A DNA stretch of 64,000 nt from Anaerolineae bacterium. Lineage in GTDB: Bacteria > Chloroflexota > Anaerolineae > Aggregatilineales > Aggregatilineaceae. Shown here piece by piece: positions 7,393 through 17,785 of this stretch. The translations under genes were made by a program, and so were the position numbers. Every line of letters begins with the position of its first letter. The stretch's first letter is position 1. The DNA lies in assembly GCA_023382715.1 (NCBI GenBank), contig JAHDWP010000014.1, positions 1 through 64,000 on the forward strand, written 5' to 3'. The notes under the pieces were generated by a model that searched no databases, was not told where the DNA came from, and was given only the letters and a program-made list of their open reading frames with translations.

Positions 7393-8493
7393 TCAGAGCT
7401 GCGAAGCCTGCACGACCAGCTCGTTCTGGTCGCGGATGGCCAGGCCGAGGATGGCGTCGTTGGGATAGAAGGCCATGCCGGGGAACAGGCCGAGCACGAA
7501 TCCCTCGAACTTGGTGCGCAGCAGCCCGCTGTCCGGGCCAATGGCTCGCCCGTAGATGTCCACCATGCGCGCGACCGGGTCGCCAGGAGCCAGCAGATCG
7601 CCGGGCTGAACCAGGTGATGGACGAGGCAGGTCTGCGGCACGCGCGGGTGAATCGTGCGCCGCACCGGATAGCCGGGCCTGATGATCGGGATGTCGGGCA
7701 GCGGCTCCGCCGGGCCGGGCAGCATCCCCGCCCAGCGCATGACGTTGCGCACGCCGACCACCACGGCCTGTACGTAGCGGGTATTGACCGCCCTCTGCCC
7801 GCCGACCTCGATGGTGATGGCCGGGATGCGCGCCCGGTTGAGCGCCGCGCCGCTGACCGAGCGATGCAGGTCTAGCTCCATATAGCGCGCTGACGCGAAT
7901 TCGTTGACCACCGTCAGGCCCAGCGCGTCGAGCATCTCGCCCACTTTCTGCTGAAGCCTCTCCGCCACCGGCTTATCCGCCGCGCCGCTGTAGAACACCG
8001 GATCGCGGAAGGCGAACGGGATCGAGCGGATGCCGAAATCGTGCAGGTCAATCAGGCAGGTGGCTGTGGCGCTGATACGCTCGAACAGGCGGCTGTAGGC
8101 TTGCTCCAGGGCGGGGGCGAAATGGTTGGGATAGTCGGCATCGGGGGCCGAGAGGCCGGGAAACAGGCGGTTGGGGTCTTTGCCGCCCAGGTAATACGGG
8201 CTGCGCTCGCCCGTGCGCAGCCCCGCCGGGCTGAGCGTAGGGATGGCGACCAGGGTGCCGCGCAGGTGAGCCAGCAGCTCCAGGGTGACCAGATGGTGGA
8301 TGACCGCGATGCCGTCGTACTCGCCGCCGTGAATGTTGGCCGTCAGCCACAGCACAGGCTCCGCCGCCTCGCGCCCCTGGGCGATGATGACCGGGAAGAA
8401 CTCCGACCCGCCAGTGGGCAGCGGCAGCGCCTCGAACGTCCCGTAGACGATCTGGCCTGGTTTGCCGCGTGCACTGCCGACTTGTATGGTCAT
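7393..8493 (-). CDS. AstE/AspA-family zinc deacylase
   Basis: The 366-residue protein belongs to the succinylglutamate desuccinylase / aspartoacylase family, zinc carboxypeptidase-like enzymes that remove acyl groups from amino acids or related amides. ANIHGGEYDG gives the first zinc His and Glu, LIDLHDFG the second zinc His, and GERSPYYLGGKDPNRLFPG matches the substrate-binding Asn-Arg region. The C-terminal part (VHHLVQPGDLLAPGDPVARM) is the small beta-barrel domain of these enzymes. The start at 8493 is favoured because the earlier in-frame residues are unlike the family; a GAGGAG lies 13 bases upstream. It is 37 bases downstream of the receiver/GAF gene and probably co-transcribed. Exact substrate unknown. 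Confidence 0.75.
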   Translation of the reverse strand: MTIQVGSARGKPGQIVYGTFEALPLPTGGSEFFPVIIAQGREAAEPVLWLTANIHGGEYDGIAVIHHLVTLELLAHLRGTLVAIPTLSPAGLRTGERSPYYLGGKDPNRLFPGLSAPDADYPNHFAPALEQAYSRLFERISATATCLIDLHDFGIRSIPFAFRDPVFYSGAADKPVAERLQQKVGEMLDALGLTVVNEFASARYMELDLHRSVSGAALNRARIPAITIEVGGQRAVNTRYVQAVVVGVRNVMRWAGMLPGPAEPLPDIPIIRPGYPVRRTIHPRVPQTCLVHHLVQPGDLLAPGDPVARMVDIYGRAIGPDSGLLRTKFEGFVLGLFPGMAFYPNDAILGLAIRDQNELVVQASQL

Positions 8494-8530
8494 TGGCGCT
8501 GTTATGCTCCTCTTCGTTGCGCGGGCCACC

Positions 8531-9427
8531 TCAGGCCCGGTCGCGCTTGGCCAGCGCAGTGGCCAGTTGCGCGCTGATCAGCTCCAGCAGCATGACGTGC
8601 TTCTGGGGAATACTGTGAGGCTGGGCGCGGCAGGCCAGCAAAGCCCCGAAGCGCAGCGCCGCGCCGACGGGCACGCATACCCCGCTTTGCAGGGAAGCCC
8701 CTTCGATGAAGGGGTGGTTTGGGCGATCGGTTGGGCCGACGGTGCGGCTCTGACCGGTCTGCGCCACCCAGCCGACCAGCGTGCCGTCCTGAGACTGCTG
8801 CTGCGGCGCAATGCCGGTCAGGCTGGGCGGGCCGATCTGCGTGCGCAGCGCCAACTGGCCAGGGGCCGCCGGGTCCGGGCTGAAAAACGCTACGTAGTCG
8901 TAGCCCAGGTCGTGGATCACCTCGACCGCCGCGCGGATCATGGCTTCTGGCGTGCGCGCCCGCACCAGCACCTTGGCGAGCTGGCGCACAGGGGGCAGCG
9001 TGTCGGCGCGCAGCGTCTCCAGCCGGCGCTCCTCGACCAACCGCTTGATTCGGCGCAGCAGGTCATCTCCGGCGAAGGGCGTCACCGAGATCTCGTCGGC
9101 CTGGCCCGGCAAGCCGAAATCCGCCTCTTCGTCCACCAGGACGATCAACAGGCGGGGGTAGGTATGACGCAACTGCCTGACGAAGTCGAACGTATCACCC
9201 GATCGCGCGTCCAGCACCAGCACGTCGGTGCGCGTCTGCGGATCGGCCAGATGCTCCATCGCCTCCTGCTGGCGGGTGACGAACACCGGGCTGATCTGCG
9301 GCTCGCGGGCGAAGAGGTCGCGGAAGCGGGTCAGCGATTCGCGCGGGATGGTGGCGAGCACGTAGATGGGCAGCGCATTGGTCATGGTGGCGATAGTCCT
9401 CGTGGCCCGCGATCGTCCGCGCGCCAT
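8531..9427 (-). CDS. Receiver-like plus GAF sensory protein
   Basis: The protein has two visible parts. The first 120 residues or so form a CheY-like fold (PIYVLATIP, then VLVLDARSG with a phosphoacceptor-like Asp, then LLIVLVDEE and FAGDDLLRRIKRL). The second part (about 140-298) is a GAF domain with VGWVAQTGQSRTV and GVCVPV, typical of small-molecule or light-sensing domains. The acidic pair after strand one is absent, so phosphorylation is uncertain. No output domain is present. The ATG at 9427 lies 7 bases after a perfect -10 box, suggesting a leaderless message; an alternative ATG at 9385 has GAGGA 11 bases upstream and would remove a basic tail. Confidence 0.65.
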   Translation of the reverse strand: MARGRSRATRTIATMTNALPIYVLATIPRESLTRFRDLFAREPQISPVFVTRQQEAMEHLADPQTRTDVLVLDARSGDTFDFVRQLRHTYPRLLIVLVDEEADFGLPGQADEISVTPFAGDDLLRRIKRLVEERRLETLRADTLPPVRQLAKVLVRARTPEAMIRAAVEVIHDLGYDYVAFFSPDPAAPGQLALRTQIGPPSLTGIAPQQQSQDGTLVGWVAQTGQSRTVGPTDRPNHPFIEGASLQSGVCVPVGAALRFGALLACRAQPHSIPQKHVMLLELISAQLATALAKRDRA

Positions 9428-9504: not shown

Positions 9505-11187
9505 TCAGGTCAGCGGGGCGCGCTGGCGCGTGGGGCGACCGCCGCGCATCCACAGCGCGGCGACGAGCGCGATCAGCGCGGCGGCGGCGCCGATGAGCTG
9601 AAGCTCGCAGATGGCATCCACTGCCGCTTCGAGGCTGGCGGTTTGCGAGGCGAGCACTGTCTCTTCGAGACCCGCAGCGCCCGCCATGCGCCTGGCGACG
9701 AGCACATCGAAGCGGTTGAGCGCGTAGGCGGTCAGCGACGAGATGGAGACGGTCATGCCCACCAGGCGCAGAACCAGGATCATCGCCGCCGCAATTCCGC
9801 GCTCGTCCTCGCGCACGTCGTTGAGCACGGCGGTGCCTATCGGGGAAATTGTCAGGCCCAGGCCGATGCCGATGAGGGCCATCTGTCCGCCCATCAACCA
9901 GTAGGATGTGTCACTCTCCCATGTGGTGCCGGTCAGGGCGAACCCGATCCCCGCGATCAGCAGGCCCAGCACCGTCGGCAGCCGGTAGCCCGTGCGCTCG
10001 CTCAGCCAGCCGCCAGGGATCGCCGCCAGGGCCATCGGCACAGTCAGCCCGGACAGCAGCAGCCCGGCGGTGTAGGCGGCGTGCTGCACGTCTTTGCTCG
10101 TCGGGCTGTCCATGCGGAAATTGACCAGCAGCGGCGCGCTGACCAGCCCGATCGCCAGGCAGAAGCCCACCAGGAAGTTGGCGACTGAGGAAGCGGAGAC
10201 GTTGCGGCTGCGGAACATGCCCAGGCGGATCAGCGGATGCGAAACGCGCGCCTCGACGAGCAGAAACAGCAGAAAGGCCAGCGCCGCGCCGATCAGCAGC
10301 GCAGGGCCGTTGTGTGACGCGGTGCGCCCCAGCTCTTCGAAGCTTCCGGCGGTGCTGGCGGCTTCGGGGCTGCTCCCCAGGCCGAGATTCAGCCCGATCA
10401 GCGCCAGGGTGAGGAACAGCGTGCCGAGCAGGTCGAAACGCCCAACGCGGCGCGGGCGATGAATGCCGCGCAAGGCCCACCACGCGCCGGCCAGGGCCAG
10501 GGCGCTGAGCGGGATATTGAGCAGAAACAGCGTCTCCCACGAGGGTTTGGCGACGGAGATTCCCAGCCCGGTGAAAGCGTCCACGACGGCGTCGCCATGC
10601 TGCCCGAACAGGCGCACCATCACCCCGCCGTAGAGGTGCCCCAGCACCCAGCCGAGCGTGTCTATCGCGCCCACGACGCCCAACGGACGGGCGCGGCGTT
10701 CGGGCGGGAACAGGTCGCCCGCCAGGGCGATCGTCACCGGCACCATGGCGCCCGCGCCAAACGCCTGCACCACGCGCCCGAAGATGACCAGATCGAGGTA
10801 ACGCTCTTCCAGACGCGGCGGTGGCTCGTCCAACACCTGGCGATAGAAACGGGCGATCGCGCTGTTGAGCGTCGAGCTGTCGTAGGCGGTGACCAGGTAC
10901 GACCCGGCCATGAAGATCAGCAGGCAGGTGATGTAGACGGCGCGCCGCCCGAACAGGTCCGATAGTCGCCCGGCAAAAGTCATGCTGATCGCGTAGGCGA
11001 GCAGGTAGCCGCTGACCGCCCAGGAGGCGTGATCGAGGTACTCTTTGACCGGCAGGTCGAGGCTGACGATCACTTCGGGCAGCACAGCGGAGATGATCGT
11101 CAGGTCGAGCGCGCCGATGAAGACAGGCAGGCTGACAATAGCCAGCACCAGCCAGGGTGCTCGCTGCGCGGCGGGGCGTGCGGTCAT
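9505..11187 (-). CDS. 14-helix MFS exporter (DHA2 type), P55-like
   Basis: The 560-residue membrane protein has many hydrophobic helices and the DHA2 hallmarks: ALDLTIISAVLPEV near the first helix, and the MFS motif A in GRLSDLFGRRAV after helix 2. Members export drugs or lipids using the proton gradient. Its ATG overlaps the stop of an LppX/LprG-type lipoprotein gene (ATGA), so the two are translationally coupled. In mycobacteria the lipoprotein LprG and the MFS protein P55 (Rv1410c) form the same kind of pair and move triacylated lipids; by analogy this exporter may deliver lipids to the lipoprotein. That role is inference from synteny and family. Confidence 0.8.
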   Translation of the reverse strand: MTARPAAQRAPWLVLAIVSLPVFIGALDLTIISAVLPEVIVSLDLPVKEYLDHASWAVSGYLLAYAISMTFAGRLSDLFGRRAVYITCLLIFMAGSYLVTAYDSSTLNSAIARFYRQVLDEPPPRLEERYLDLVIFGRVVQAFGAGAMVPVTIALAGDLFPPERRARPLGVVGAIDTLGWVLGHLYGGVMVRLFGQHGDAVVDAFTGLGISVAKPSWETLFLLNIPLSALALAGAWWALRGIHRPRRVGRFDLLGTLFLTLALIGLNLGLGSSPEAASTAGSFEELGRTASHNGPALLIGAALAFLLFLLVEARVSHPLIRLGMFRSRNVSASSVANFLVGFCLAIGLVSAPLLVNFRMDSPTSKDVQHAAYTAGLLLSGLTVPMALAAIPGGWLSERTGYRLPTVLGLLIAGIGFALTGTTWESDTSYWLMGGQMALIGIGLGLTISPIGTAVLNDVREDERGIAAAMILVLRLVGMTVSISSLTAYALNRFDVLVARRMAGAAGLEETVLASQTASLEAAVDAICELQLIGAAAALIALVAALWMRGGRPTRQRAPLT

Positions 11188-11948
11188 GAAGCGTCGCCGT
11201 CCGCGGCGGGGGCGGTGATGCTGACCGGCGCGTTGTATTCGGAGATGTTGATCTGCCAGGTGGTCGGATCGCTGTTTGCTGCCCATTCTGGCGGCGGCTC
11301 GACCAGCGCGATGCGCAGCACGCGCCTGTTCTGCGTGCCGATGAACACGTCAATATCCAGCAGGCCGGTGGTGACCCGGCTGAGGCCCAGCGTCAGCGAG
11401 AAAATGCGCCCGGCCTCGACACGCCCGCGCACCTGGTAGACGCTCAGCCCGTCCATATCTGTGCGCCCGACCAAAGACAGGTCGCGGATGGTGGAGAGCG
11501 TGTGCGGGACTCCACCCGGCTGTGCGACCAGAGAGGCCGGCTCGAAGCCCGGCAGAAACTCGCCTTGCAGCCAGCGATTGCCGGTGATCAGCTCGCCGCG
11601 AAAGTACTGCGTGCTTCCCAGAGCGACCAGCTCGGCGATGGTGCTCAGCACACCCAACCGAAACTGCACGCGCGCGCTCAGCCGGTCGGGCATCTGAAAC
11701 GTCCCGCTGGCATACTTGAACGAAACTTCCGCACCTTCGGGGAGGTCGAGTCCGGCAACGGAAACAGCGACACGATAGCCGCTCACGTCCACTTCGTACT
11801 TGAACGATGTGGCGTCCTGAAGCTGGGTGATGCCCTCGGCCAGCAGCGTTTGCGGGTCGGGCGTTGGCTGTGGGGGGGCGTCATCGCCGCCGCACGCGGC
11901 AGTCATCGCCGTCAGCGCCAGAACCAGCAGCAGCTTGAGTGCGCGCAT
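11184..11948 (-). CDS. LppX/LprAFG-type lipoprotein
   Basis: The 254-residue protein has a lipoprotein signal with lipobox TAAC (Cys19) after a hydrophobic stretch, then a Pro-rich spacer. The rest matches the plan of the LppX_LprAFG fold: alternating strands from SFKYEVDVSG, a middle GSTQYFRGEL and WLQGEF, then LSLVGRTDMDGLSVYQVRG, and a last strand near NISEYNAPVSITAP. In mycobacteria this fold is a half-barrel with a lipid-binding cavity. A GGAGAGG site precedes the start. It is the first gene of a two-gene operon with the MFS exporter. Confidence 0.75.
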   Translation of the reverse strand: MRALKLLLVLALTAMTAACGGDDAPPQPTPDPQTLLAEGITQLQDATSFKYEVDVSGYRVAVSVAGLDLPEGAEVSFKYASGTFQMPDRLSARVQFRLGVLSTIAELVALGSTQYFRGELITGNRWLQGEFLPGFEPASLVAQPGGVPHTLSTIRDLSLVGRTDMDGLSVYQVRGRVEAGRIFSLTLGLSRVTTGLLDIDVFIGTQNRRVLRIALVEPPPEWAANSDPTTWQINISEYNAPVSITAPAADGDAS

Positions 11949-12044
11949 GAGAATCGCCTCTCCGGTTCATGAGCGGGCGAAAAACCTACTTTGTACTACG
12001 AGCAGGGCAGCGGCAAGGTTGCGCGGGCAGCCTGTCCGGTCGCC

Positions 12045-12372: not shown

Positions 12373-14253
12373 TCACCGCTGCCCGGCGCGCGAGCGGCCC
12401 AGCGCGTCAATCACCGCGGCCACCAGGTCGTAGCGCCCGAAGGCGGGCATGATGTAGACGCCCTGCGCCCGCTCGCGAACACGGAGCAGCAACTCCTGAG
12501 CAACGCGCACCCCTTCGCTGGGCGCGGCGTCGCCGGCGTCCGTGATGCGCCGGCGGATGTCCTGCGGAATCTCGATGCCCGGCACCTCGTTGTGCAGGAA
12601 GGACGTGTGCCGCTCGCCGAAGAGAGGCAGAATCCCGGCCAGGATGGGCAGCGTCAGCGGGCCGAATTCGGCGGTGTAGGCGGCGCGGAAACGATCCAGC
12701 CGTTCCGGCTCAAAAACCGGCTGGGTGAGGGCGAAGTCCGCGCCCGCGTCAATCTTCTTGTGCAGCAGCCGGACTTCGCGCGCCAGATCGCCCGCGTTGA
12801 CGTTGAGTGCGCAGCCGACGAGGAAGGACGTGGGCTGACCGATGGAATTGCCCGCGCCGTCAATTCCCGCGTTGAGGTTGCGCCGGACCAGGTGAATCAG
12901 GCTGGTGGGCACGATGTCGTGCGCGTCAAAGGAGTCCGGATAGTCGCCGATCTGCGTCGGGTCGCCCATGACGACGAACAGGTTGCGCACGTCCAGCGCG
13001 TGCGCGGCCAGCAGATCGCCGTGAATGCGCAGCAGGTTGCGCCCGCGCGTCGGGAAGTGCAGCACCGTCTCCAGCCCGACATGGTGCTGAATCAGGTGGC
13101 AGACGGCCCAGGGACTCATCCTCATGCGGGCCATCGGGCTGTCGGAGACGTTGATGACGTCGGCGCCCGCCTCGCGCAGCAGCTCAGCGGAGGCGATGAC
13201 CTTCTGGGCGGTGAAACTGCGCGGCGGCGGCATCTCCACCGTGACGACGAACTGGCCGGCGGCCAGCTTGCGGGCCAGCTCGGTCGGCTCCTCTGGCACT
13301 TCGCTGGGGGCGGCCTCGCCAGGCTCGCTCACTGTGATCGGTGCGGGGCGCGCAGGGGCGGGGGCGTCCAGGGCGGCGCGCATGGCGCGGATGTGATCGG
13401 GCGTGGTGCCGCAGCAGCCGCCCACGATGCACGCGCCCGCCTCGCGAAAGGCCAGCGCGTACTCGCCGAAGTAGTCGGGCGTGGCCGGGTACATGACGCG
13501 CCCGCCGGCCATCTCCGGCCAGCCCGCGTTGGGGGCGACGGAGAAGCGCGCCTCTGGCACGGCGCGGTGCATCAACTGGAGGATGCGCAGCAGGTGTGTC
13601 GGCCCGCTGGAGCAGTTGACGCCGATCACATCTGCGCCGGTCGCGTACAGGGCGCGGGCGACCTGGGCGGGCGTGTCGCCGAGCAGGGTGCGGCTGTCGC
13701 GGGTGAAGGTCATCTGGGCGACGATCGGCATGGTCGGGTTTATGCGCCGGGCGGCGGCGATGGCCGCGGCGATCTCGCGCACGTCGCTGAACGTCTCGCA
13801 GATGAGCAGATCGGCACCCGCTGCGATCAGCGCGCCAATCTGCTCGCTGAAGGCGGCGCTGGCCTCCTCCGCCGTGACGCGCCCGAACGGGGCCAGGCGC
13901 ACGCCCAGCGGCCCAACAGACCCGGCGACATAGGCATCGTCGCGCCCGCTCTCGATGACAGCCTGCCGGGCGAGGGTCACGCCCGCCCGGTTGATGGCCG
14001 CGCAGTCGTGTTCCAGGCTGCAATCGGCCAGCTTGTAGGCGTTGGCGCTGAAGGTGTTGGTCTCGATGATCTCCGCCCCGGCGTCCAGGTAGCGGCGGTG
14101 AATGGCGGCCACGGCCTCCGGCTCGGTCAGGTTGAGCAGGTCGAAGCAGGTATCTATGGGCAGGCTGTGCTGAGCGTGGAGCACAGTGCCCATCGCCCCG
14201 TCGAGCAGGATGGTGTCCTGGGCCAGCCGTTCGCGGAAGGGGATGCGGGCCAT
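12373..14253 (-). CDS. Homocysteine S-methyltransferase / methylenetetrahydrofolate reductase fusion (YitJ-like)
   Basis: The 626-residue protein fuses two enzymes. Residues 1-300 are a homocysteine methyltransferase barrel: LLDGAMGTVL, IIETNTFSAN, VNCSSGP and VGGCCGTTPDH, whose three cysteines bind zinc. Residues about 335-626 are a methylenetetrahydrofolate reductase flavoprotein: TVEMPPPRSF, DVINVSDSP, LFVVMGDPTQIGDYP and FALTQPVFEPE. Such fusions occur in Bacillus (YitJ) and supply methyl-folate and methylate homocysteine. The start follows the metH stop by one base, with GGAGG inside the end of metH, so it is the second gene of the SAM-riboswitch operon. Why a second homocysteine methyltransferase is needed beside MetH is unclear. 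Confidence 0.9.
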   Translation of the reverse strand: MARIPFRERLAQDTILLDGAMGTVLHAQHSLPIDTCFDLLNLTEPEAVAAIHRRYLDAGAEIIETNTFSANAYKLADCSLEHDCAAINRAGVTLARQAVIESGRDDAYVAGSVGPLGVRLAPFGRVTAEEASAAFSEQIGALIAAGADLLICETFSDVREIAAAIAAARRINPTMPIVAQMTFTRDSRTLLGDTPAQVARALYATGADVIGVNCSSGPTHLLRILQLMHRAVPEARFSVAPNAGWPEMAGGRVMYPATPDYFGEYALAFREAGACIVGGCCGTTPDHIRAMRAALDAPAPARPAPITVSEPGEAAPSEVPEEPTELARKLAAGQFVVTVEMPPPRSFTAQKVIASAELLREAGADVINVSDSPMARMRMSPWAVCHLIQHHVGLETVLHFPTRGRNLLRIHGDLLAAHALDVRNLFVVMGDPTQIGDYPDSFDAHDIVPTSLIHLVRRNLNAGIDGAGNSIGQPTSFLVGCALNVNAGDLAREVRLLHKKIDAGADFALTQPVFEPERLDRFRAAYTAEFGPLTLPILAGILPLFGERHTSFLHNEVPGIEIPQDIRRRITDAGDAAPSEGVRVAQELLLRVRERAQGVYIMPAFGRYDLVAAVIDALGRSRAGQR

Positions 14254-14254
14254 A

Positions 14255-17200
14255 TCACGCCTCCGCCAGTTGTTCCGTGCGCGACACGCCCGTGCTGTAA
14301 TATTTCGCGTCGGGGTGGTGCACGACGATCGCTGCGGTGGACTGCTCCGGCACAAGCTGATAGGCGGATGTTAAGGACATGCCCAGCATCTCTTCGGCGG
14401 GCAGCAGCCGGAACAGCGTGGCGTGGTCTTCCAGGTCGGGGCAGGCGGGGTAGCCCCAGCTATAGCGCTTGCCGCGCTCGACGGGCAGGCCAAGCTCGCG
14501 GTTGATGTGGCGGTTCAGGTAGGTGGCGGTCGCCTCGGCGGTCTGCACGGCCAGCCCATGGAAAAAGTACGCTTCGGTATATTCGTGCACCGCCTGCAGC
14601 GCGTCGAAGCGCTCGGTCGCGCCCGCGCTGACAGTGACAACCTGCAACGGGCAGACATCCACCTGCTCGCCACTGGCCGGGGCGAAGTAGTCGGCCAGGC
14701 ACAGGTACTCGCCGAACGGCTGGCGCGGGAAGCTGAAGCGGGCGATCTCGCGCAGCGACCCCGCCTCGGTGTAGCGGGCCGGGTCGTAGAGGATCACGGC
14801 GTCGCCGTCGGCCTGCGCCGGGAAGTAGCCGTAAACAGCCGCCGGGTGCAGCGAGCCATCGGCCAGGGCCGTGCGCTTCATCTGCGCCAGCCGCGCCTCA
14901 AACTCGCGTTCCAGGCGCGCCCATTCGTCGCCGTGCGCGTTGCGCGCCCCCCAGTTCAGCCGGAAAAGCTCCGGCTTGTGAATGAAGGGGAAGACCGCGT
15001 CGAGCGGGATGTCGTGCACGGTGCGCACTCCCCAGAAGGGCGGTGTCGGGATGTCCGGGGCGGGGCCGATTGCTGAGCGGCGGTCGGGGGCGCGCCGGTC
15101 GCGGACGGGCGGGCGCTCTCTGCCGATCTCCTGGTATGCTTCGGCCAGCGTGCGCTCCAGCAGGGTCTCGCGCTTGGCGGGCGCGACAAGCTGCTCCATG
15201 ACCTCCAGCCCCTCAAAGGCGTCCTTGCAGTAGAAGACGCCCGGCGCATAGGGTTCGCCGCCATCCTCCAGGAAGAGGATGCGCCGCCCGAAGGCGCGGT
15301 TGATGGCCGCTCCGCCGATCAGCACGGGGATGGACAGGCCGCGCCGGGCCAGCTCGTTGACGATGAGCGGCATCTGCTTGGAGGTGCTGACCAGCAGCGC
15401 GCTGAGGCCGATGGCGTCGGCCTGGTGCTGCACCGCCGCGTCAACGATCACGCTGGCCGGGGTCTGCTTGCCCAGGTCGTGCACGCTGAAGCCATTGTTG
15501 CTGAGGATGGTGCGCACCAGGTTCTTGCCGATGTCATGCACGTCCCCGTAGACGGTCGCCACGACGATGGTGCCCTTGCTGGCCCCTTCGGCCCGTTCCA
15601 GGAAGTTTTCCAGGTAGGCGACGGCCTTCTTCATCACCTCGGCGCTCTGCAGGACGAAGGGTAGGATCAGCTCGCCCGCGCCGAAGCGGTCGCCGACCTC
15701 CTTCATGGCGGGCAGCAGCACGTTGTTGAGCACGCTCACTGCGTCCTGGCGGGTCAGGCAGTCATCAATCAGCGCCTCGACGCCCTCTTTCTTACGATGG
15801 ACGATCTGCCAGTGCAGCGCCTCCTCGGCAGCCATGCCCTCAGTGGGGTCGGCTTGTTCCTCGCCGCCGACTGTCACTGTGTGCTCCTCGAAATAGCGGA
15901 TGAAGTCGGCCAGCGCGTCGGGGTGCTCGTTGAAGATCAGCGCGTCGGCCAGGCGGCGCTGTTCGGCGGGGATCTCGGCGTAGGGGGTGATGTGCGCCGG
16001 GTTGACGATGGCCATGTCCAGGCCGGCCTCGACGCAGTGGTACAGGAAGACGCTGTTGAGCACGGCGCGCGCGCCGGCGCTCAGCCCGAACGACACGTTG
16101 CTGACGCCCAGCGAAGTGAGCACACCGGGCAGCTCGGCTTTGATGCGGCGGATGCCCTCAACGGTCTCAACGGCGCTGCCGGCCATCTCCGGGTCGCCGG
16201 TGGCCAGGGTGAAGGTCAGCGCGTCGAAGATCAGATCTTCCGGGGAAAGCCCATACTCGCTGACGGCGATCTCGGTGATCCGCCGGGCGATCTCGACCTT
16301 GCGAGCGGCGGTTTTGGCCATACCCGTCTCGTCAATGGTCAGGGCGACCACCGCCGCGCCATGCCGGACGGCGATGGGCAGCACGGCGTCCACGCGGGCG
16401 CGCCCGTTCTCCAGGTTGATGCTGTTGATCAGGCCACGCCCAGGATAGAGGCGCAGCGCCGCCTCGATCACGTCGGCCTCGGTGCTGTCAATCATCAGCG
16501 GCACGTCTACCGCCAGCGACAGGCGCTTGACGACTTCGGCCATCTGCGCGGCCTCATCGGGGCGCTCGGTGAGGGCCACGCACACGTCGAGGATGTGCGC
16601 GCCGGACTCGACCTGCTGGCGCGCGACCTGCACAATGCCATCGTAGTCCTCGTCCAGCAGCAGCCGCTTGATCTTGCGGCTGCCCTGGCTGTTGACGCGC
16701 TCGCCGATCAGGGTGGGCGGCGGCTGCTGGCGCAGCGAGATGGCGCGCATCCCGCTCGACGCGGCGGGTTCGGTCTCCGGCTGGCGGACGAGGGGCTGGC
16801 GGGGGGTGTGCGGGCTGCCCTGCACGCGCCGAATGAGCTGCGCAAGGTGCTCCGGCGTGGTGCCGCAGCAGCCGCCCACGACGCTCACGCCCCAGTCCAC
16901 GAACTCGCCGAGCATGGCTGCGAACGGCTCCGGCTGCATGGGGTAGACGGCCTGCCCGTCCACGTTGATTGGCAGCCCGGCGTTGGGCAGCACGCTGATC
17001 GGGCGGGTGCTGTGCTCGGCCAGGTACTTGACCGGCCCGGCCATGTGCTCCGGCCCGGTGGAGCAGTTGAGGCCGATCACGTCAATGGGCAGCGCTTCGA
17101 GTGTGGTCAGGGCGCTGGCGATGTCCGTGCCGAAGAGCATCCGCCCGCTGGTGTCGAGCGTCACCTGCACCTGCACGGGGATGCGCACGCCCACCTCGGC

Positions 17201-17785
17201 GAAGTAGCGCCCGATGCCGGTCACCGCTGCGCGCGCTTCCAGGATGTCCTGGCTGGTTTCCAGCAGCAGCACGTCCGCGCCGCCTTCGACCAGGCCGCGC
17301 GCCTGCTCGGCGAACACGGCGGCCAGGTCCTCGAAACCGATCCGGCTCAGGTCGGGGTCGTCGGAGCTGGGCAGCATCCCGGATGGCCCCAGGCTGCCGG
17401 CGACGTAGCGCGGGATACCCGTCTCGGCGGCGAAGCGGTCGGCGACGCGGCGGGCCAGAGCAGCGGCGGCGCGGTTGATCTCGACGACGCGATCGGCCAG
17501 CCCATATTCGGCCAGGGTCAGCCGGTTGGAGCGGAAGGTGTTGGTCTCAATAACCTCACAGCCGACAGCCAGGAAAGAGGCATGGATCTCCTCGATCACG
17601 TCCGGGCGAGTGATCACCAGGAAGTCGTTGCAGCCGTTGGTCTGCTCGCCGCCGAAATCCGCAGCGGACAGGTTGTAACGCTGGATGCTGGTGCCCATCG
17701 CCCCGTCGTAGATCAGCACGTGGTTGGCGATGGCGTCCAGGTAGCGGCGATCGGTGTGAGGCGGAAGCTGGCGCGTCATTGGCAT
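14255..17785 (-). CDS. metH: Cobalamin-dependent methionine synthase
   Basis: This 1176-residue protein has all four MetH modules in order. Homocysteine domain: IYDGAMGTSIQ, VIETNTFRSN, LNCSTGPEHM, VGGCCGTTPEH. Pterin domain: LIGERVNSQGS through FGLSAGARAVLNS. Cobalamin domain: a cap helix region, then VYGDVHDIGKN with the cobalt-binding His, SALLVSTSKQM and IGGAAINRAF. SAM-dependent reactivation domain: about 930-1176 with LNRHINRELGLP, GKRYSWGYPACPD and SAYQLVPEQSTAA. It transfers a methyl group from methyltetrahydrofolate to homocysteine through B12. Length is normal for the family. It is the first gene after a SAM-I riboswitch. ATG at 17779 is an alternative start. Confidence 0.95.
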   Translation of the reverse strand: MPMTRQLPPHTDRRYLDAIANHVLIYDGAMGTSIQRYNLSAADFGGEQTNGCNDFLVITRPDVIEEIHASFLAVGCEVIETNTFRSNRLTLAEYGLADRVVEINRAAAALARRVADRFAAETGIPRYVAGSLGPSGMLPSSDDPDLSRIGFEDLAAVFAEQARGLVEGGADVLLLETSQDILEARAAVTGIGRYFAEVGVRIPVQVQVTLDTSGRMLFGTDIASALTTLEALPIDVIGLNCSTGPEHMAGPVKYLAEHSTRPISVLPNAGLPINVDGQAVYPMQPEPFAAMLGEFVDWGVSVVGGCCGTTPEHLAQLIRRVQGSPHTPRQPLVRQPETEPAASSGMRAISLRQQPPPTLIGERVNSQGSRKIKRLLLDEDYDGIVQVARQQVESGAHILDVCVALTERPDEAAQMAEVVKRLSLAVDVPLMIDSTEADVIEAALRLYPGRGLINSINLENGRARVDAVLPIAVRHGAAVVALTIDETGMAKTAARKVEIARRITEIAVSEYGLSPEDLIFDALTFTLATGDPEMAGSAVETVEGIRRIKAELPGVLTSLGVSNVSFGLSAGARAVLNSVFLYHCVEAGLDMAIVNPAHITPYAEIPAEQRRLADALIFNEHPDALADFIRYFEEHTVTVGGEEQADPTEGMAAEEALHWQIVHRKKEGVEALIDDCLTRQDAVSVLNNVLLPAMKEVGDRFGAGELILPFVLQSAEVMKKAVAYLENFLERAEGASKGTIVVATVYGDVHDIGKNLVRTILSNNGFSVHDLGKQTPASVIVDAAVQHQADAIGLSALLVSTSKQMPLIVNELARRGLSIPVLIGGAAINRAFGRRILFLEDGGEPYAPGVFYCKDAFEGLEVMEQLVAPAKRETLLERTLAEAYQEIGRERPPVRDRRAPDRRSAIGPAPDIPTPPFWGVRTVHDIPLDAVFPFIHKPELFRLNWGARNAHGDEWARLEREFEARLAQMKRTALADGSLHPAAVYGYFPAQADGDAVILYDPARYTEAGSLREIARFSFPRQPFGEYLCLADYFAPASGEQVDVCPLQVVTVSAGATERFDALQAVHEYTEAYFFHGLAVQTAEATATYLNRHINRELGLPVERGKRYSWGYPACPDLEDHATLFRLLPAEEMLGMSLTSAYQLVPEQSTAAIVVHHPDAKYYSTGVSRTEQLAEA

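Follow-up and report, generated by a model that had tools for sequence, protein, structure and literature searches.

The window, by which we mean the whole analysed stretch of 64,000 nucleotides from an Anaerolineae genome, carries two overlapping genes on its minus strand. The first (11184..11948) codes for an LprG-like lipoprotein of 254 aa, as judged from a match to the Pfam family PF07161 and from the fold predicted by AlphaFold2 (AF2). The second (9505..11187) codes for a P55/Rv1410-like DHA2 MFS transporter of 560 aa, which is based on an MFS_1 match of 139.6 bits and a match to the structure 8pnl. A Shine-Dalgarno-like GGAGAGG (11957..11963, minus strand) lies 5' of the lipoprotein ATG, and the reading frame starts with a predicted signal peptide and the lipobox TAAC (11892..11948, minus strand; Cys19 at 11892-11894). 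The column of Cys19 was conserved at 90% or above in an alignment of 48 rows (A2), and lipidation at this residue is putative. The lipoprotein stop and the transporter start share four bases in an ATGA motif (11184..11187, minus strand), an overlap that likely couples translation of the two genes. Position 11187 is most likely the true transporter start, giving the protein of 560 aa, and not the ATG at 11286 of the mechanically called 593-aa ORF. A lipoprotein gene overlapping the start of a DHA2 MFS gene had been named in a preliminary description of this DNA, and both genes are found at that place and on that strand. The gene order is also the same as that of LprG-P55, with the lipoprotein directly upstream on the same strand and joined to the transporter by the ATGA overlap.

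The pair is followed by genes for a GAF-domain and an AstE/AspA-like protein (7393-9427, minus strand), which adjoin it in 4/4 close relatives (L152, L153, L154 and L156) and not further out. On the other side, a bifunctional homocysteine methyltransferase/MTHFR gene (12373-14355, minus strand) overlaps the upstream long ORF (14255-17785, minus strand), which looks MetH-like by eye. A wider operon was considered and rejected. In 64 named loci, broad conservation was not seen for any further neighbour, and most of the large neighbour clusters reflected the transporter gene read in antisense or in a shifted frame.

The assignment of the lipoprotein to the LppX/LprAFG type, previously made from motifs, was borne out by PF07161 (LppX_LprAFG), which matched with 39.4 bits at a cut-off of 24 (E 7.4e-10) and across the full profile (1-192 of 192). 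Matches to NCBIfam were weak, the best being the SCO4651 family lipoprotein, which stayed under its cut-off. The window genome contains one PF07161 gene, and the family is presumably already listed for Chloroflexota in Pfam and InterPro. An AF2 model of the lipoprotein built on the 48-row alignment reached a mean pLDDT of 92.5, and the top nine rows of a Foldseek search with this model were all LprG, LprF or LppX. In VIA-align, the model superimposed on Mycobacterium tuberculosis LprG (3mh9) over 202 residues with a Z score of 22.5 and an rmsd of 2.7 Å, at an identity of only about 20% in the structural alignment. The Z scores of the predicted model were 21.8 for LprF, 21.5 for LprG bound to triacylglyceride (TAG; 4zra), 16.7 for LppX and 11.0 for the next fold, a LolA-family protein. 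For this model, LprG and LprF score less than 1 Z unit apart, too close for the fold alone to separate them. We favour LprG over LprF because of the linked transporter.

For the transporter, the best sequence match in the PDB was 8pnl, the structure of the Rv1410/P55 homologue MHAS2168 (E 1.4e-35), followed by EfpA (3.8e-8). An AF2 model based on 42 rows (pLDDT 91.2) matched 8pnl with a Z score of 42.4, compared to 35.0 for the next structure, and 8pnl also ranked first in Foldseek. The best NCBIfam match was TIGR00711 (EmrB), which remained under its cut-off. In the model, TM11 and TM12 (residues 460-501 and 507-545; 9553..9810, minus strand) are 42 and 39 residues in length and thus as long as in MHAS2168. 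The extended TM11-TM12 region, which had been proposed as a check of P55 identity, is therefore present in the model, although P55-like and generic DHA2 transporters cannot be told apart by it. The span was even longer in the generic rows, so that we rejected its length as a diagnostic trait. The TM9-TM10 beta-hairpin of MHAS2168, which is not known as a defining trait, had no counterpart in strands of the transporter model. The equivalents of MHAS2168 D35, R118, Q121, N184, G150, A420 and R426 are all kept in the window transporter (for their roles, see PMC10576003). The window genome harbors one P55-like transporter together with one distant paralogue.

Rv1410 and MHAS2168 possess a salt bridge between a glutamate in TM5 and an arginine in TM11, which is, according to PMC10576003, a hallmark of homologues from mycobacteria and absent from 46 other MFS transporters. 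The window transporter has the arginine, as R474 (9766..9768, minus strand), the equivalent of the ion-lock R426 of MHAS2168 and invariant in two alignments (A1 and A3). A glutamate at the position of MHAS2168 E157 was not found in the window transporter. T177 occupies this position, and an acid, D176, stands one residue earlier (D176-T177; 10657..10662, minus strand). We took a census of both positions in sequences that were non-redundant at 95%. All 146 lipoprotein-linked transporters (146/146) had an acid at 176 or 177, compared to 0/16 generic DHA2 rows, a set from which the P55-like, acid-bearing L217 (Dictyobacter) is excluded. Among the linked rows of the Chloroflexota side, which include a few labelled otherwise (e.g. 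Thermomicrobiota and a MAG labelled Acidobacteriaceae), the acid occurred in 127/127, with DT in 60, DM in one and E at 177 in 66. The 19 linked rows from Actinomycetota had E at 177 in 17 cases and at 176 in two. Thirteen further rows for which no lipoprotein was found alongside kept the acid as well (10 DT, 3 TE). Since R474 is present in every generic DHA2 row and is thus not P55-specific, the acid at 176/177, and not R474, is by alignment the diagnostic residue. On the tree, a single change is enough to account for both acid positions (44 rows with a state). The shifted acid is a trait of a subfamily, not a defect of a single sequence. Because the search for a glutamate at the exact position was negative, we file the window pair as a predicted variant of the P55-LprG system with a shifted ion lock. 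Such a shift is a natural experiment on the residue proposed for proton coupling.

A survey of other Chloroflexota showed the pair to be conserved. PF07161 was matched at E 0.001 in 115 of 301 Chloroflexota genomes (99/151 in the order of the window), while 186/301 had no match. The surroundings were read in 106 of the 115 lipoprotein-positive genomes. The transporter lies directly downstream of the lipoprotein in 89 of them and upstream of it in three, both are encoded in a single ORF in one, and no transporter lies near the lipoprotein in 13. One lipoprotein-positive genome outside the 106 likewise had no transporter nearby. Linkage in 90/106 genomes is far beyond chance. Of the two outcomes that the preliminary description had named as refuting it, a lipoprotein outside PF07161 and a pair that is not conserved, neither came about. 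Within the window's order, 38 of the 99 positive genomes were read, of which 29 show lipoprotein then transporter, one the reversed order and eight the lipoprotein alone. Genus g212 accounts for four of these eight, and no close transporter was found anywhere at E 1e-25 in the three g212 genomes tested; in two f24 genomes, the transporter is located elsewhere in the genome. An LprG-like lipoprotein without adjoining P55-like transporter was seen in G416, G440 and G398 (genus g212) and in f34 genomes.

The single ORF, a frame of 889 aa, is located on contig JAUZRW010000079.1 of an Anaerolineae MAG (G240) and is known from this one contig, which was counted twice (L109 and L169). It holds, in this order, the lipobox, an LprG-like domain (19-268), two hydrophobic stretches and the transporter (352-878). 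The two predicted hydrophobic stretches would put the N-terminus of the transporter outside, and translation might start internally at a GTG that immediately precedes TM1. Owing to this topology problem, the origin from one MAG contig and the fact that the hairpin module is common, the single ORF supports a working partnership in a supporting and not in a decisive manner. The hydrophobic hairpin (L169:3731-3973) is a recurrent module that was found at E 0.01 in 71/154 genomes of the order, where it mostly belongs to other ORFs.

The reverse exception was observed in Ktedonobacteria, where two genomes (L193 and L204) have the transporter and no PF07161 match at all. The P55-like transporters of this group exhibit an extra C-terminal membrane helix and a domain of about 200 residues (L193:3563-6253, L194:3740-6250, L195:3647-6253, L204:3788-6229 and L217:3815-6256; also L063, L089 and L092). 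No convincing Pfam or PDB match was obtained for the C-terminal domain, and no lipoprotein family was found among the neighbours of the orphan transporters. The domain might replace LprG.

The pair is not confined to this phylum. When named genomes were scanned, the best 80 loci contained at least 48 linked loci and at least one single-ORF locus, and the linked ones include Gaiellales, Thermoleophilia and other Actinomycetota. Another 16 P55-like loci among the 80 had no lipoprotein that we could find, with the contig ending in some of them. At 15 generic DHA2 loci, the last entries among the 80 matches listed, no lipoprotein was adjacent (0/15). PF07161 was present in 35/246 Actinomycetota genomes; in 30 Actinomycetota loci that were read, the transporter was downstream in 17, and the unlinked lipoproteins were the weakly scoring ones, with L237 as the exception. 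A quick maximum-likelihood tree separated 58 linked transporters (39 from the Chloroflexota side and 19 from Actinomycetota) from 14 generic ones with an SH-aLRT of 100, a separation that holds against these rows, a small set picked by search rank, and not against every DHA2 family. Chloroflexota and Actinomycetota were mixed inside the linked group, and a tree without a long paralogue gave the same result. The preliminary description had placed the pair outside actinobacteria, which understates its range. Rather than a mycobacterial system with a single occurrence elsewhere, the pair is an old unit that belongs to Chloroflexota and to several deep lineages within the Actinomycetota.

In the window genome (98.6% complete), no match to Omp85/BamA was detected with a probe that matched in 7/14 controls. 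The wax ester synthase/diacylglycerol acyltransferase (WS/DGAT) likewise had no match in the window genome or in G310, G302, G240, G118, G238, G116 and G300. Besides the window genome, this negative set comprises three genomes of the same order and four further Chloroflexota, and all ten Chloroflexota tested bear the lipoprotein. WS/DGAT was present in the remaining two, G306 and G166, and thus absent in 7/9 Chloroflexota other than the window genome; three Actinomycetota controls gave 14, 12 and 10 matches. Because the enzyme is missing from the window genome and seven other Chloroflexota, TAG made by WS/DGAT cannot be the general cargo. The proposal that this locus exports triacylglycerides, as in mycobacteria, thus finds no backing in a genome without WS/DGAT when set against the 10-14 matches of the controls. 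G166, which we take to be a Roseiflexus-like genome, carries the pair (L121). Roseiflexus castenholzii appears to be without an outer layer (PMC7332563, PMC13319060, PMC8871954), and since G166 carries the pair, the latter does not strictly track the outer layer. Chloroflexus aggregans and Ca. Viridilinea have been reported to possess a diderm-like envelope by cryo-tomography (PMC7332563), while bamA, LPS and lol genes are described as missing from Chloroflexota and their outer membrane has long been disputed (PMC7332563, PMC13319060, PMC8871954). We found no lipid route to the outer layer of Chloroflexota described in the accessible portions of this literature. Open-access literature also gave no report on LprG in Chloroflexi, on LprG homologs with Streptomyces and Rv1410, or on the Chloroflexota envelope together with the mycomembrane. 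Among the matches listed, papers on LprG and P55 were exclusively mycobacterial or general efflux papers, and the family name LppX_LprAFG led only to lipoprotein glycosylation in M. abscessus.

We consider it probable that the two genes form an operon whose products act as a proton-driven lipid relay in the manner of LprG-P55. The transporter would take a hydrophobic, multi-acylated lipid out of the core of the cytoplasmic membrane, open outward and pass the lipid along the extended TM11-TM12. The LprG-like lipoprotein, anchored in the membrane, would then receive the lipid in its putative lipid pocket and carry it to the outer envelope. For Rv1410-LprG, extraction and hand-over to LprG have been modelled (PMC10576003). 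We infer lipid transport, its direction and proton coupling from homology, the folds, the gene overlap, the linkage, the coupling residues and the one double-domain ORF. The notion of a conserved lipid transfer system in this organism is thereby upheld in so far as an LprG-like lipoprotein, a P55-like transporter, their gene order and the conservation of the pair were all found in a BamA-less genome, but not with respect to triacylglyceride; the cargo is probably a lipid other than TAG made by WS/DGAT.

One rival, that the pair exports TAG exactly as mycobacterial LprG-P55 does, gains from TAG-bound LprG (4zra) being among the closest solved structures to the lipoprotein and from WS/DGAT in the lipoprotein-bearing G306 and G166. 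The absence of the enzyme from the window genome, three genomes of its order and four further Chloroflexota, as compared to the controls (14, 12 and 10 matches), makes this very unlikely in our view. Transporters with a DHA2 fold are mostly drug pumps. P55 itself was first described as a multidrug efflux pump (PMC10576003), and the window transporter could be such a pump as well, with the lipoprotein as an accessory or an unrelated neighbour. TIGR00711 (EmrB) as best NCBIfam match would agree with this, though under its cut-off. However, generic DHA2 loci were without a lipoprotein (0/15), and the linked transporters form their own tree group with a specific acid, so that we hold a drug pump to be decidedly improbable; by PDB ranking, tree and control loci, a generic DHA2 drug pump was rejected as the best reading.

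Another explanation would be that the LprG-like protein sorts lipoproteins in the manner of LolA or senses lipids in the manner of RseB, and that the two genes are linked only because they belong to one envelope regulon. Folds of the LolA and RseB types do come next among the structural neighbours, and in some genomes the lipoprotein occurs on its own. The fall in Z from 22.5 for LprG to 11.0 for the nearest LolA-family protein, the fact that the gene adjoins and overlaps that of a single transporter subfamily and the ORF uniting both domains speak against it, and we regard it as highly improbable. Returning to the lipid relay, a tentative and rather doubtful extension is that an outer layer of lipids is assembled in Chloroflexota without Bam, LPS and Lol, and that the pair is its lipid supply line, a route shared with, and older than, the mycomembrane of Actinomycetota. 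The occurrence of LprG-P55 in a Chloroflexota genome without BamA and WS/DGAT and in deep Actinomycetota lineages suggests that the system did not arise for the mycomembrane. If it predates its role there, the framing of its mycobacterial function would change. For Chloroflexota, the pair offers a testable lipid-export route and a gene-level handle on their disputed envelope.

Compared with known systems, the window pair is distinct from the DHA2 drug pumps. EfpA, QacA, EmrB and NorC share the DHA2 fold with the transporter at Z scores of 33-35 versus 42.4 for the P55 homologue, and generic rows lack the ion-lock acid (0/16), as their loci lack a lipoprotein partner (0/15). LppX and LprF belong to the same Pfam family, PF07161, and have the same fold as the predicted lipoprotein, which resembles LppX less than LprG. 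LppX is not known to have a linked P55-like transporter. With the LprG-Rv1410 (P27-P55) operon of Mycobacterium, the window shares the gene order, the LprG fold in the predicted model, a DHA2 transporter with long TM11-TM12 and the coupling residues including the ion-lock arginine. It differs in the acid one residue earlier, in a model without the TM9-TM10 hairpin and in a host without WS/DGAT and Omp85. LolCDE, which works with LolA and LolB, is an ABC transporter with lipoproteins as cargo (see also PMC10576003), in contrast to the MFS transporter of the window; the LolA-like fold class is shared, and in both a membrane extractor would pass its cargo to a periplasmic carrier.
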